DNA of 64,000 bases from Thermoproteota archaeon (GTDB lineage Archaea > Korarchaeota > Korarchaeia > Korarchaeales > Korarchaeaceae), in assembly GCA_030130125.1 (NCBI GenBank), contig JARZZM010000014.1, positions 1 through 64,000 on the forward strand, read 5' to 3'. The position numbers and the translations under genes were made by a program. The notes under the pieces are model-generated. The model was not told the origin of the DNA. It searched no databases and saw only the letters and a list, made by a program, of their open reading frames with translations. The stretch's first letter is position 1. Each line of letters begins with the position of its first letter. Of the stretch, positions 24,286-29,802 are shown one piece after another.

Positions 24286-24669
24286 ATGTCAGGTGTGAGG
24301 CCTGGCCTGACCGGTGAGTTCACCTATCTAGTTGATGAGAATATGGCCGCGAGCCATTTGGGGGTTGGGGTCCTCTCCACTCCCAGCATGATAGCCCTTA
24401 TGGAGATCTCGTGCCACAGAACCGTGGAGCCCTACCTAGAAGAGGGTTACACCACCGTGGGTACGTATGTGTGCGTTTTTCACAGAGCCCCTGCTCCAAT
24501 CGGCGGAGAGGTCAGGGTGAAGGCGACCCTTGTGGACATGGATGGAAGGAAGCTTGTCTTCAGGGTCGAGGCCTACTGGAAGGAGAAGCTCATAGGTGAG
24601 GGAGAGCATCACCGCTTCATAGTGAATGAGGAGAGGTTCGCTTCCAAGCTGAAGGAGGAGTTGGGTTGA
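24286..24669 (+). CDS. Hotdog-fold thioesterase (FlK-like)
   Basis: A 127-residue single hotdog domain. The pattern STPSMIALMEISCHRTVEPYL carries a Thr and a Glu in the places of the FlK (fluoroacetyl-CoA thioesterase) catalytic Thr/Glu, and FHRAPAPIGGEV supplies a His in the expected position. The C-terminal GEGEHHRFIV is family-typical. It likely hydrolyses a small acyl-CoA. It sits between the symporter and endonuclease III with tight spacing. Confidence 0.78.
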   Translation: MSGVRPGLTGEFTYLVDENMAASHLGVGVLSTPSMIALMEISCHRTVEPYLEEGYTTVGTYVCVFHRAPAPIGGEVRVKATLVDMDGRKLVFRVEAYWKEKLIGEGEHHRFIVNEERFASKLKEELG

Positions 24670-25352
24670 TCGAGGGAGTGGATGGGAAGGCAATCCTGAG
24701 GAGGCTAGAGGGGGCCTTGGACTTCAAGGAGGAGGAGTTCGTCTCCCTCATGGCCAGCAAATCCAAGAACCCATTTGAGGTGCTGGTAACCACCATAGTC
24801 TCCCAGAACACCAACGATAAGAATACCGCAAAGGCTATGAAGAGATTGAAGAATATTCTGGGCAGGATAGTTCCCGGAAGGATAGAGAAGCTCAGTTTGA
24901 GGGAGCTGGAGGAGGCCCTGAGACCGGCGGGCCTTTATAGACAGAAAGCGAGGGTCATCAAGAGGGTTGCCTCCCTCCTGAGCGGCGGCAGGCTAGAGAG
25001 AATACTAGAGAAGGACCTCGAGGAGGCCAGGAGGGAATTGATCAGCCTGCCTGGAGTTGGACCCAAGACTGCTGACGTGCTGTTGAGCTTAATGGGGAGG
25101 AGACCCACCATAGCGGTGGACAGGCACATCACTAGGGTGGCAGTCAGACTTGGTCTAGCAAGTAGCGACGACTACGAGGAGATAAGAGGATCGTTAATGA
25201 GGTTGTTCGACCCAGAAGACTACTTGAAGGCGCACCTCCTCCTGATAAAGTTGGGAAGGGTTTACTGCCGTCCTAAGAACCCGAAGTGCGAAGAGTGTCC
25301 CCTCAGGGACATGTGCGATTACGCCAAGTCCAAGAAGAAAATTGGAAGGTGA
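24666..25352 (+). CDS. nth: Endonuclease III
   Basis: A 228-residue HhH-GPD DNA glycosylase/AP lyase. The helix-hairpin-helix is LPGVGPKTADVLL with the catalytic Lys, and the catalytic Asp is in AVDRHITRV. The C-terminal iron-sulfur loop has four cysteines in C-x6-C-x2-C-x5-C (CRPKNPKCEECPLRDMC). It removes oxidised pyrimidines. The TTG start overlaps the thioesterase stop (TTGA). Confidence 0.95.
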   Translation: MIEGVDGKAILRRLEGALDFKEEEFVSLMASKSKNPFEVLVTTIVSQNTNDKNTAKAMKRLKNILGRIVPGRIEKLSLRELEEALRPAGLYRQKARVIKRVASLLSGGRLERILEKDLEEARRELISLPGVGPKTADVLLSLMGRRPTIAVDRHITRVAVRLGLASSDDYEEIRGSLMRLFDPEDYLKAHLLLIKLGRVYCRPKNPKCEECPLRDMCDYAKSKKKIGR

Positions 25353-25359
25353 GGATGTT

Positions 25360-27270
25360 TTACATCCTCTCCAGCCTCGGCACGCCGATGAGGTCTAGCG
25401 CCTTTCCTAGGACCCCTCTCACCCCCATAACGAGCCACATCCTAGCTTCCCTTGCTCCCTCAGGAGCGTTGATAACCGGATGGGTCTCGTAGAACTTATT
25501 GAAGGTCGAGGCCAGCTCATTAGCGTATTGGGAGATCAGATCCGGTCTTAGAAGCTGGTAAGCACTCCTCACCTTCTCCGGAAACTCTGCCAACATGTAA
25601 ACTAGGGACACCTCCAGATCGGACGACAATTCGGATGGATCGAAGGATTCAGGGATCTCTCCTGCCTTTTTCAAGATGTTATGGGCCCTAGTGTAGGAGT
25701 ACTGGACGAAAGGTCCACTGTTCGTCTCGAAGTCGAGGACCCTCTCCCACCTAAACTGGACTACCTTGGTGGGGGAGACATTGATCAGGGCATACTTCAG
25801 GGCACCTACAGCTACCCTCTCGGCTATCTCCTCTATCCCTGGATCCCTGTCCATTCCCCTCTCCTGAAGTATCTTCATAACCTTGCCTTTTGCCTCGTCC
25901 AAGAGATCGTCTAACGTTATGTAGAGGGCCTTCCTCCCAGACATCCTCACCCCTATAAGGTTGACCATCTCGTAAGCGAAGTGTACGAGGAAGTCCGGAT
26001 CATAGCCCATCAGGGCGAGGCTCGCCCTCACCTCCTTCTGCTCCAAAGTCTGCTCGGTGGCGATCACGTTGTAGCACCTTCTGACGTCGGTAGCCTCCAC
26101 CTTGAAGAGGGAGTAAGCCACATCAGTCCCCGTGTACAGCCAAGTACCGTCCGATCTGGTGAGGTAGAACCTCGGAGGTACTACCTCCTCCAGCCTGCCC
26201 TCCTCCTCTAATCTCCTCACCTCGTCCTCCGTCAGTCCGAATATCCTCCTGACATCCTCCCTCTCCCTGATCGCCCTCTCAAGATCGATGTATATCGCTT
26301 CACCGTCCCTACCCAGATAACCGGAGGATTCAAGCTTCTCTAGGGATTTCCTCACCCAGCTCTTCCATATGAGCTCGCTCTCCCAGTCGAACTGATCGTA
26401 GGTTATGCCCATCCTGCCCAAGGTCTGGAGGAAACCTCTTAGGACCGATTCTGCTACCTCCCTGAAGACCTCCCTCGCATCCGGGTCTCCGGACTGGTAC
26501 CTCTTTAGGAGATCCATGACGTAGCGGTCGTCAAGCTCGGTCAGTCCTTTGGCTATCTCGGGATCTTGGGCTCTAACCCTCTCTATGGTCTCCTCCCACT
26601 CCTTCAGATCCCCCTCCTCAGATTCACCCCTCTTGATCCTGTCTATCTCCAGCACCGCGTTAGCCATGGCGTATACCAGACCGAACCAGTGATCCAGCTT
26701 CCCCTTCGGCTTGAGGTGCCTCGTCTTGGACCTGCCAGCTGCTAGTATCGCAACCTGCAGGTTGCAGTCGTTCACCAAGTAGTGCCTCCTAACATCCCAG
26801 CCTAGGAAGTCCAGTATCCTAGCGAAGGAGTCGCCTATTATAGCGTTCCTCCCGCTTCCTACGTGGAGGGGATGTACTGGGTTGACGCTGGTGTGCTCCA
26901 CCATTAGCTTCTCTCCCTTCCTCTCCCCCCTGCCCAGCTCCTCCCTAGACGCCAAGGAGAGGACGTCCTTGAAGAGGGTCTCACGAGAAACCCTCACGTT
27001 GAGGTATCCATTTTCAACCCTCACTTCCTCCGTATACGGTATGCTGGAAGCATCTATCCTCCCAGCCACTAAAAGCGCCGCTTCGTCCGGCTTCCTCCTC
27101 AGGTATCTAGCTATCTTGAATCCGACCGGTAGTCCGTAGACATCCGCGTCCTTGGGGGATCGAGCTACTTGGAGGGGGGAGAAGGACCCCTTCACTCCTA
27201 TCTCTGAGAGGGCCTTATTCACTTCATCAGCTAGAGCTAATTTCATGGAGCCGAGCGGATCTGTGGTCAT
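25360..27270 (-). CDS. argS: Arginyl-tRNA synthetase
   Basis: Class Ia synthetase of about 636 residues. The HIGH-like motif is VHPLHVGSGRNAIIGDSFAR. The KMSKS-like loop is the MSGRKALYITLDDLL segment, and the C-terminal DALR anticodon domain has SYTRAHNILKKA. The frame is open to 27384, but the ATG at 27270 is preferred: a TATA element (GTTTTAAATA on the minus strand, 27291-27300) is centred 25 bases upstream, implying a leaderless mRNA. The N-terminal Add-1 domain then begins normally. It is divergent from the endonuclease V fusion. Confidence 0.94.
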   Translation of the reverse strand: MTTDPLGSMKLALADEVNKALSEIGVKGSFSPLQVARSPKDADVYGLPVGFKIARYLRRKPDEAALLVAGRIDASSIPYTEEVRVENGYLNVRVSRETLFKDVLSLASREELGRGERKGEKLMVEHTSVNPVHPLHVGSGRNAIIGDSFARILDFLGWDVRRHYLVNDCNLQVAILAAGRSKTRHLKPKGKLDHWFGLVYAMANAVLEIDRIKRGESEEGDLKEWEETIERVRAQDPEIAKGLTELDDRYVMDLLKRYQSGDPDAREVFREVAESVLRGFLQTLGRMGITYDQFDWESELIWKSWVRKSLEKLESSGYLGRDGEAIYIDLERAIREREDVRRIFGLTEDEVRRLEEEGRLEEVVPPRFYLTRSDGTWLYTGTDVAYSLFKVEATDVRRCYNVIATEQTLEQKEVRASLALMGYDPDFLVHFAYEMVNLIGVRMSGRKALYITLDDLLDEAKGKVMKILQERGMDRDPGIEEIAERVAVGALKYALINVSPTKVVQFRWERVLDFETNSGPFVQYSYTRAHNILKKAGEIPESFDPSELSSDLEVSLVYMLAEFPEKVRSAYQLLRPDLISQYANELASTFNKFYETHPVINAPEGAREARMWLVMGVRGVLGKALDLIGVPRLERM

Positions 27271-27300: not shown

Positions 27301-27317
27301 GGTGGTGAGATATCCGA

Positions 27318-28184
27318 CTGACGCGCTTCCAAGAGATACTTGCTGAGGCCTTGCAGAGCATTCCCCCGGGCAGGGTTTCATCATTCGGTGACATAGCCTC
27401 CGCCCTGGGGGATGTCAGGGCCGCTCTCGCTGTGAGAAACGAGTGCCTAAGGCTATCTAACCTCGCACCTCATGTTCCTTGGTGGAGGGCTGTGTCCTCA
27501 GACGGTAAACCACTTCCGGGAGCCTTAAAGAGAATTAGAGAGGAAGGAGGACTTGAACATCTCAGGGGGAGGAAGTTCTTCCACGATGTTAGGGCCTGGC
27601 CCATCTTCCGGTTGATGGCGGAGGCTCAGTTAATGCTCTCCTCTAAGCTGGATTTAAGGTCCCTGAAAGGGGTGGAAGTGGCTGCCGGTGTCGACGTCAG
27701 TTATGGGGACGAGGAGGCTGTCGCGGCCTGCGTCTCGGTCGATTCCAGATTGGAGATCGTCGAGGTGGCTTACGAGAGGTTCGTCCCCCAGATACCTTAT
27801 GTGCCGACCTACTTGGCATTCAGGGAGTTGAGGGGCATGCTCCCCTCCGCCCTCAAGTGCGATTTCGATGTGATATTTGTGGATGGGCACGGCCTCTCCC
27901 ATCCGAGGATGCTAGGGGAGGCCTCACATTTGGGGTTGCTGCTGGGGAAACCCTCCATAGGAGTTGCGAAGTCTAAGCTGGTGGGGAGATTGGAGGGGGA
28001 CCGCGTCGTCCTCCGAGGCAGGGAGGTCGGTGCTGTTGTGAGGAGGGGTTTCGTCTCTCCCGGTCACCTGATGGACTTGGAGAGCAGCATAGAGATATCC
28101 AAGAAGTTCTGGAGGGAAGGAAAGCAGCCTCTACCCCTCATACTAGCCCACAGGATTTCCAAGGAGACTATACGGGGATCCTGA
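27318..28184 (+). CDS. Alkyltransferase-like domain fused to endonuclease V
   Basis: Two DNA-repair domains in one chain. Residues about 1-90 match the DNA-binding half of O6-alkylguanine-DNA alkyltransferase (IPPGRVSSFGDIA, then RNECLRLSNLAPHVPWWRAV), but the catalytic PCHR is PWWR. It should therefore act as an alkyltransferase-like (ATL) lesion-binding domain and not as a suicide enzyme. The rest is endonuclease V: GVDVSYGDE (first catalytic Asp), FVDGHGLSHPR and KPSIGVAKSKLVG. Conserved residues (RFQEILAEALQ) continue upstream of the first TTG at 27351, with no ATG/GTG/TTG before the upstream stop. A CTG at 27318, nine bases after GGTGGTGA, is the best candidate start. The last 17 bases overlap the next gene convergently. 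Confidence 0.85.
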   Translation: MTRFQEILAEALQSIPPGRVSSFGDIASALGDVRAALAVRNECLRLSNLAPHVPWWRAVSSDGKPLPGALKRIREEGGLEHLRGRKFFHDVRAWPIFRLMAEAQLMLSSKLDLRSLKGVEVAAGVDVSYGDEEAVAACVSVDSRLEIVEVAYERFVPQIPYVPTYLAFRELRGMLPSALKCDFDVIFVDGHGLSHPRMLGEASHLGLLLGKPSIGVAKSKLVGRLEGDRVVLRGREVGAVVRRGFVSPGHLMDLESSIEISKKFWREGKQPLPLILAHRISKETIRGS

Positions 28185-29619
28185 TCTCGTGCGATTTCCC
28201 GGCCTCCAGATCGACCCTCATGATGGAGTCCTTGCCCTCGGGATTTATCACCCTGAGTTGAAGGTCCTTCACTTCACTGTAGGGCATTATCTTACCCTCC
28301 AAGTACTTCCTGTCGTACCTGAAGGTGCCCTTCACATCGCTCACCGCCCTGAACCTCTCAACTAGAATGCTGGGCGGGGCGACCCATATCCCTCTCTCAT
28401 GAGCGTTCCTGAGGAGCGAGAGGGTGGATAGCTCGTCCATCGCGTCAACCGCCACCATGCACCCCCAATTGGCCACGAACTCCGCTGCTCTCGAAGCTGA
28501 TCCTCTATCAGAGACCCTTCCCACCAGTGGGATGTTCCAGACGAGGCCGTTAGGCCTGAACGGACATCCGATGCCGACCGGGAACCCGAATTCTCCAGCG
28601 ATCTCGCCAGCCAGTACGTATCCCGCCTCGACGTATACCGCCGACCTCCAAGCATCCATCAGGGTGGAGGCTATACCCTTGAACCTGATCCCTATGCCTC
28701 CCCTCTTTATGAGGGCGGCTACCTCCTCGTACTCCTCGGCCATCGACATGTGATCTATGGAGGCCCTGACTGAGGCTAGGAGGCCCACCTCATGACCGCC
28801 CTCCTCCATTGATATGAGCAGGTCCCTGATCTTATTCGGAGTGTAGTCTTCTCCCCTCCCCACGAAGAACGTGAGGTCCTCAGTTCCTTTAATCAACCTC
28901 TCTATCCAGGATTCCGTTCTTCGAAGCAACTTTCTCAGGTCGAACCTCAGGCCGGAACGCCCCGTCCTGTATATAGGAATGGAGACGGACATTCCTCCCT
29001 TGTAGCCAGAAGGGGGGATCTGCTTCATTATGAGAGGGAGCTTCTCCCTTTTGTGGAGGAGTAGAATAGAGAAGAGGAGGAACTTAGCATGCAGATCAAC
29101 TACAGGGGTGGATACGGGGACCCCTCTGAGGTCCTCCAAGACCTTGGGGTTGAAGCGCCTGTCGCTGGTCCTTATCCTCTTCATGCCCAAGGAGGACTCG
29201 GCCCCCTTTAGGAAGTAGCTCACGTTCCTGAAGAGGTCGTATCCCAAGAGAAGGTGCGAATCCTTGGAGTAGAGGGGGGCCTGCCTGAGCAGTCTCTCGC
29301 CTTCTAGATCATACTTGGCTCCAAAGTAGGGTATCTTTATCCTATCCACTACCATGAAGCCTGCAGGCTCAGGTGGGGATTTCTTCACCTCAGTCTTATC
29401 TCCCCCGTAGTAGGAGAGGGCCGTCTCGCCCACGAATATAGAGGGGATGGTTACGGGGACGAATTCGGTTGCCTCGGGGAATATGGCCACGGAGTGCTTC
29501 AAGGGATCTGGTTCATCCACCTCCTCCCAGAACAGTCCCAGTGAATTCAAGGTGTGTTTGACCGCATCCCTCACATCCCTGTCCAAGGATCTAACAGCCG
29601 CAATGTTCGTCGGGACCAC
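28168..29619 (-). CDS. Polysaccharide deacetylase-like protein
   Basis: About 483 residues. The C-terminal half (from about 270) has the layout of large polysaccharide-deacetylase-fold proteins: LRFDLRKLLRR, MEEGGHEVGLLASVRASID, then GIGIRFKGIAS in place of the usual G-x-R-x-H-x-L, and GFPVGIGCPFRP followed by IP. Key metal-binding His positions appear replaced, so it may be non-catalytic. The N-terminal half is alpha/beta and unrecognised. The frame extends into the tRNA gene, so I place the start at the GTG at 29619 (VVPTNIAAV). Family membership is moderate, function low. Confidence 0.5.
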   Translation of the reverse strand: MVPTNIAAVRSLDRDVRDAVKHTLNSLGLFWEEVDEPDPLKHSVAIFPEATEFVPVTIPSIFVGETALSYYGGDKTEVKKSPPEPAGFMVVDRIKIPYFGAKYDLEGERLLRQAPLYSKDSHLLLGYDLFRNVSYFLKGAESSLGMKRIRTSDRRFNPKVLEDLRGVPVSTPVVDLHAKFLLFSILLLHKREKLPLIMKQIPPSGYKGGMSVSIPIYRTGRSGLRFDLRKLLRRTESWIERLIKGTEDLTFFVGRGEDYTPNKIRDLLISMEEGGHEVGLLASVRASIDHMSMAEEYEEVAALIKRGGIGIRFKGIASTLMDAWRSAVYVEAGYVLAGEIAGEFGFPVGIGCPFRPNGLVWNIPLVGRVSDRGSASRAAEFVANWGCMVAVDAMDELSTLSLLRNAHERGIWVAPPSILVERFRAVSDVKGTFRYDRKYLEGKIMPYSEVKDLQLRVINPEGKDSIMRVDLEAGKSHEIRIPV

Positions 29620-29638
29620 GCCCCCTATAGAACGGAGG

Positions 29639-29773
29639 TGGTGGGGCCGGTGGGACTTGAACCCACGTCCTACGGGTCTCCCCCTCAGTGCTCCAATGAC
29701 TGGAGCCCGCCGCCCTACCTTTCCAGGGCGTTCCCCCAATCATGGGGGGAGAGCCAGGCTGGGCCACGGCCCC
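29639..29773 (-). tRNA. tRNA-Trp (CCA) with two introns and encoded CCA
   Basis: On the minus strand the exons fold into a complete cloverleaf: acceptor GGGGCCG/CGGCCCC, D-stem GCCC/GGGC, anticodon stem GCGGG/CCCGT, T-arm GTGGG-TTCAAGT-CCCAC, discriminator A, then genomic CCA (29641-29639). To form the D-arm, about 36 bases (29753-29718) must be removed after AGCCTGG in the D-loop. That insert contains a CCCCC/GGGGG hairpin. The anticodon loop CTCCAGA requires removal of 22 bases (29699-29678) at or near the canonical 37/38 position. The splice points are ambiguous by up to two bases. The anticodon CCA is the same for every alternative in that range. The mature length is about 74 plus CCA. 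A TATA-like ATTTAAAG (29789-29796) lies upstream. Confidence 0.88.
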
Positions 29774-29802
29774 CCAGATCCTCCTCCCTTTAAATCGAGG
29801 AA

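Follow-up and report, generated by a model that had tools for sequence, protein, structure and literature searches.

The window, a stretch of 64,000 nucleotides from a korarchaeal genome of 1.5 Mb in 66 contigs (assembly GCA_030130125.1, contig JARZZM010000014.1), carries a gene in which an alkyltransferase-type DNA-binding domain is fused to endonuclease V (EndoV). Korarchaea are heat-loving archaea. Next to the fusion gene lie argS, in divergent orientation, and a convergent gene for a 503-residue protein, an arrangement conserved in the genus. The features of the locus are the following, with residues counted from the CTG codon at 27318.

25360..27270, minus strand: argS, divergent neighbour across the genus; the listed open reading frame extends to 27384, and a start at about 27270 is inferred
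27301..27308, plus strand: Shine-Dalgarno-like GGTGGTGA, conserved in L001-L006, L008 and L012
27312..28184, plus strand: whole fusion gene, from a likely ATC start to TGA (initially annotated as 27318-28184)
27318..27557, plus strand: winged-helix domain of alkyltransferase (AGT) or alkyltransferase-like (ATL) type, aa 1-80, by Pfam PF01035 and profile match to Atl1
27384..27386, plus strand: F23, at the base-flipping Tyr (Atl1 Y25, hAGT Y114), by alignment
27426..27428, plus strand: L37, at the Arg finger (Atl1 R39, hAGT R128), by alignment
27435..27437, plus strand: R40, Arg or Lys in the genus versus Gly in the AGTs of fusions, by alignment
27480..27488, plus strand: W55-W56-R57 (PWWR) at the PCHR/PWHR site, codons TGG TGG AGG, by alignments
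27501..27545, plus strand: shortened active-site (lesion-binding) loop, aa 62-76, by HMMER alignment
27558..27614, plus strand: variable linker, aa 81-99, with 10-90% identity versus 50-100% in the flanking domains
27615..28166, plus strand: EndoV domain, aa 100-283, by PF04493 and matches to EndoV structures (PDB 3hd0/2w35) at about 1e-26
27693..27695, plus strand: D126, metal ligand, D43 of Thermotoga maritima EndoV, by alignment
27798..27800, plus strand: Y161, wedge Y80 of PYIP, by alignment
27825..27827, plus strand: E170, T. maritima E89, by alignment
27882..27884, plus strand: D189, T. maritima D110, by alignment
27969..27971, plus strand: K218, T. maritima K139, by alignment
28149..28151, plus strand: H278, T. 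maritima H214, by alignment

The frame from 27309 to 28184 (plus strand) is open, has zero internal stops and encodes 288 residues counted from CTG 27318. The initial annotation placed the start at 27318, but this is a CTG codon, and ATC 27312 is the best candidate. Between the in-frame TGA at 27306 and the conserved F4, the window and its four nearest species offer no ATG, GTG or TTG codon. The codons upstream of the conserved part read GAT/GGG, ATC, CGA/CGG/AGG and CTG/TTA in these five species. Since the ATC is invariant and the next codon varies among Arg codons only, the five sequences suggest that translation starts from ATC 27312 by unusual AUC initiation. The ribosome-site-like GGTGGTGA precedes this ATC, and three other relatives (L006, L008 and L012) have TTG at the corresponding place.

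Other elements were observed around the fusion. The convergent gene at 28168-29739 (minus strand) encodes a genus-conserved protein of about 500 residues with zero Pfam or NCBIfam matches. Two genes from the fusion, 24666-25352 (plus strand) encodes an Endonuclease III-like HhH-GPD glycosylase with an FeS motif. At about 29640-29776 (minus strand) there is a putative tRNA gene with one or more introns, the acceptor GGGGCCG/CGGCCCC and the T-arm GTGGGTTCAAGTCCCAC; ARAGORN and Rfam gave no call for it.

Concerning the N-terminal domain, residues 4-65 match Pfam DNA_binding_1 (PF01035, the C-terminal DNA-binding domain of AGT) above the curated cut-off (E=7.2e-12). Atl1 is its best match of solved structure in profile comparison (4.6e-17), and Atl1 and VpATL are the top matches, which supports the proposed kinship to AGT and ATL proteins. 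As in ATLs, the AGT N-terminal domain is absent and the protein starts at the AGT C-terminal-type domain. Alignment with HMMER to Atl1, VpATL, Ada and OGT places W55 where AGTs have the catalytic Cys and Atl1 a Trp, and W56 at the following His. Thus the motif is PWWR instead of PCHR, with both residues replaced by Trp as originally read. The NCBIfam model ogt (TIGR00589) scores 24.8 bits, below its cut-off of 46.4, and together with the missing Cys this rules out an active AGT. Owing to the loss of Cys and His, the first domain is predicted to perform no alkyl transfer, in agreement with the initial annotation. That annotation had allowed for reads showing PCHR. PWWR is found in all 13 same-genus sequences covering the site, each of another species and from independent assemblies, one of them a single-contig genome of 1,590,757 bp; a sequencing or assembly error is therefore ruled out.

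ATLs are described as retaining two HTH residues for base flipping, the Arg finger and the Tyr, and as having a loop that closes on the flipped base (PMC10779285). In the window domain, the Arg finger is L37 (Leu in 13/13 sequences of the genus), the base-flipping Tyr is F23, with Phe throughout the genus, and the lesion-binding loop falls short of that of Atl1 by about 8 residues and of that of VpATL by 6. Phe at the Tyr site has been reported in some AGT species (PMC10779285). These losses of Arg finger, Tyr and loop residues in the window's genus were missed by the initial annotation, whose statement that the domain binds or flips alkylguanine "as ATL proteins do" they do not support. They make canonical O6-alkylguanine flipping by this domain doubtful. 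Its Cys position is that of an ATL, but its Arg finger site and its loop are not, and we would not class it as an ordinary ATL. Lesion binding through another set of contacts may still occur, given that the closest solved relatives are two ATLs; VpATL (PWFR) is itself already without the His. R40 is possibly a relocated basic residue. AlphaFold2 models from six sequences were of low confidence, with a pLDDT of 33 (whole protein) and 61 (domain), and Foldseek returned zero significant matches for them, with 2kif and 1sfe ranked first; they carry no weight here as evidence.

By its sequence, the C-terminal part is an intact EndoV. Pfam Endonuclease_5 (PF04493) covers residues 117-279 with E=1.1e-40 and 139.8 bits versus a curated cut-off of 23.4; with both Pfam domains above their cut-offs, the annotated fusion of an AGT/ATL-type domain to EndoV is confirmed. 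In T. maritima EndoV we take the catalytic set to be D43, E89, D110, H214 and K139, together with wedge Y80. Compared with that enzyme, all catalytic residues are in place in the window fusion. A search of the genomes of the window's family found no second EndoV.

The fusion is present in 22 of 24 genomes of this family and in all 14 of those with at least 90% completeness and at most 5% contamination. In the remaining families of the phylum EndoV is a separate protein, apart from a fragmentary fusion in family f5. In this fragment (L047, G026:C37) the Cys site reads GVHR, with Val for Cys, and a TGA interrupts the frame of the EndoV part; it reflects either a sequencing error or a pseudogene. 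A search of 394 archaeal genomes revealed full-length fusions in six further archaeal families, and in all 12 fusions read from these six non-korarchaeal families the Cys is present (PCHR, PCYR or PCYK), as are Arg finger and Tyr. Trp, the usual replacement in ATLs, occupies the Cys position in 21/21 fusions of the window's family that cover the region. The next residue is Trp in 13/13 sequences of the window's genus (g1) and His or Tyr in the other genera. At the Arg finger site, g3 and g5 have Arg, g2 has Lys and g1 has Leu; g4 is mixed, with Arg in one sequence and Leu in the others. In a tree including 20 rows of the family, the fusion of family f75, which has a complete AGT site with PCHR, adjoins these 20 rows with moderate support (84/84). 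Parsimony on this tree gives one change for Cys to Trp, three for the Arg finger and three for the His position. On the tree, Cys was thus replaced by Trp a single time, in the korarchaea.

The altered domain is maintained and not decaying: it is under purifying selection, as seen from its low dN/dS and the invariance of its altered residues. Among five close species (85-94% overall identity), dN/dS is 0-0.07 for the N-domain (aa 3-79) versus 0.09-0.14 for the EndoV part, by a simple counting method on few close pairs. F23, L37, W55 and W56 are invariant across the 13 species of the genus, as are P54, R57, S61, P65 and E76. In the HTH segment I26, A27, G31, D32, A35, A38 and V39 are likewise invariant, and R34 and R40 are present in nearly all. 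That W55 and W56 are so strictly conserved suggests a more specific role than DNA tethering in general. These values bear directly on the idea that the N-domain is a degenerating remnant or a misread 5' extension. The stepwise loss of active-site residues and the lack of an upstream ATG, GTG or TTG in the window's clade would fit such a remnant, but a pseudo-domain is ruled out by dN/dS below that of the EndoV domain, and altered residues would hardly stay invariant across 13 species; we regard this explanation as scarcely credible.

A separate AGT with PCHR is found in nearly every genome of the family; 14 genomes of the genus have it about 3.3 kb from XPF. The window genome has its XPF starting at base 558 of contig C17, which puts the expected AGT site beyond the contig end; the genome probably appears to be without a separate AGT only for this reason. 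Of the 29 genomes of the phylum, 27 have XPF. UvrA is absent from 29/29, while the same search was positive in 12 of 14 control genomes. This rules out a hand-over to UvrA for the phylum. ATLs work through UvrA/UvrC or XPG-type nucleotide excision repair (NER); with UvrA absent and archaea being without XPG, the fusion probably does not use these routes. Further alkyltransferase variants were noted. Three genus genomes (G010, G013 and G016) carry an additional AGT paralogue, roughly 190 aa long and with IPCHR (L098, L099 and L100), whose HTH helix is altered (e.g. VKYVEVLAALM) and, judged by eye, has no Arg where the finger would be. A 187-residue MGMT-like protein (L097, G026:C283) with TPYWRT at the active site is a different Cys-less variant.

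Which function do the two domains serve together? We consider it about evenly balanced whether the fusion is a nickase for deaminated bases in which a repurposed, non-catalytic winged helix tethers or orients EndoV on DNA. As sole EndoV of the cell, the protein would be a nickase that depends on metal and is expected to cleave on the 3' side of deaminated bases, chiefly deoxyinosine. The winged helix at its N-terminus descends from a suicide alkyltransferase. Following the order on the tree, an archaeal AGT-EndoV with Cys became an ATL-EndoV by the korarchaeal change of Cys to Trp, and in the window's genus the Arg finger, the His, the Tyr hydroxyl and part of the lesion-binding loop were then lost. 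The strictly conserved, non-catalytic HTH that remains most likely binds DNA without reading out O6-alkylguanine. It could hold EndoV in orientation on duplex DNA and thereby help scanning or binding at high temperature, while O6-alkylguanine repair would be left to the separate intact AGT.

A true ATL-EndoV coupling, in which the domain flips O6-alkylguanine and EndoV nicks beside it in place of a hand-over to NER, is the main competitor, though we think it rather unlikely. It draws on Trp at the Cys site in every family fusion covering it, on Atl1 and VpATL leading the profile matches, on a phylum without UvrA, on the Arg finger retained in the korarchaeal genera g3 and g5, and on its earlier proposal in the literature. 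Against it stand Leu for the Arg finger, Phe for Tyr and the 8-residue shorter loop in the window's genus, as well as the dedicated AGT. Moreover, EndoV cuts at a fixed distance from the base held in its own pocket, so that a second flipping site would demand special geometry. ATLs are also described as retaining both Arg finger and Tyr (PMC10779285). Lesion recognition may alternatively have been re-invented, the Trp-Trp pair together with R40 instead of R37 replacing the Arg finger and Cys pocket; R40 would then be a basic residue displaced along the recognition helix by one turn. If true, one polypeptide would recognise alkylated or distorted DNA and nick it, a one-protein repair initiator without UvrA. 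We hold this quite improbable.

Two explanations dispense with duplex DNA as the partner of the domain. That it is a protein-interaction or folding module (for EndoV itself, PCNA or another repair protein) and binds no DNA would account for the invariance of residues such as P54, S61 and E76 despite the loss of the catalytic and flipping residues, yet the HTH segment is also invariant and has the basic R34 and R40 expected of a DNA-binding helix, which makes such a module unlikely. The fusion could also act mainly on RNA or branched nucleic acid, with the N-domain aiding substrate choice, as some EndoV enzymes are reported to prefer inosine in RNA (PMC4842958, PMC5561087). However, the EndoV of prokaryotes has been described as acting on DNA, the domain belongs to a family of duplex-DNA binders and no pointer to RNA is seen in the locus; this is very improbable. 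The tethered nickase remains our preferred reading.

The coupling of lesion sensing to nicking is not new here. In a review (PMC10779285), archaeal ATL-EndoV fusions are reported with reference to Tubbs et al. 2009, and an XPG-like role for EndoV with reference to Pegg 2011; both the fusions and the coupling are thus already published. The proposal of the initial annotation, coupling to a nuclease in place of NER, is consistent with the absence of UvrA from all 29 genomes but had been anticipated in that review. The Tubbs fusion combines a Cys-less ATL-type domain with EndoV, like the window fusion, and is very likely the korarchaeal protein itself, since the review cites the Korarchaeum genome paper in its species overview. 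The review is silent both on the distribution and on the missing Arg finger and shortened loop of the window's genus, and in the literature searched no paper was found on Korarchaeum and endonuclease V. A readable series leads from an active AGT-EndoV through an ATL-EndoV with PWHR and Arg finger (g3, g5) to one without that finger (g1). This makes the published idea directly testable through natural variants, and raises the question of what keeps the alkyltransferase fold once chemistry and base-flipping lever are gone.

Each half of the protein has well-studied relatives. T. maritima endonuclease V (2w35, 3hd0) belongs to the same nuclease family, its catalytic residues being all conserved in the window fusion, but has no fused N-terminal domain. 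Schizosaccharomyces pombe Atl1 (3gva) and Vibrio parahaemolyticus ATL (2kif) share with the window domain the absence of the AGT N-terminal domain and Trp for Cys, and VpATL with its PWFR also the loss of His. Unlike the window fusion, both are stand-alone proteins in which the Arg finger and the Tyr persist and the lesion-binding loop is longer. The Ferroplasma acidarmanus AGTendoV (Kanugula et al. 2005, via PMC10779285), cited correctly in the initial annotation as a known active fusion, is archaeal too and has the same order, the C-terminal AGT domain only and then EndoV. It is an active alkyltransferase, whereas in the window fusion the Cys has become Trp, the Arg finger Leu, and the loop is shortened.
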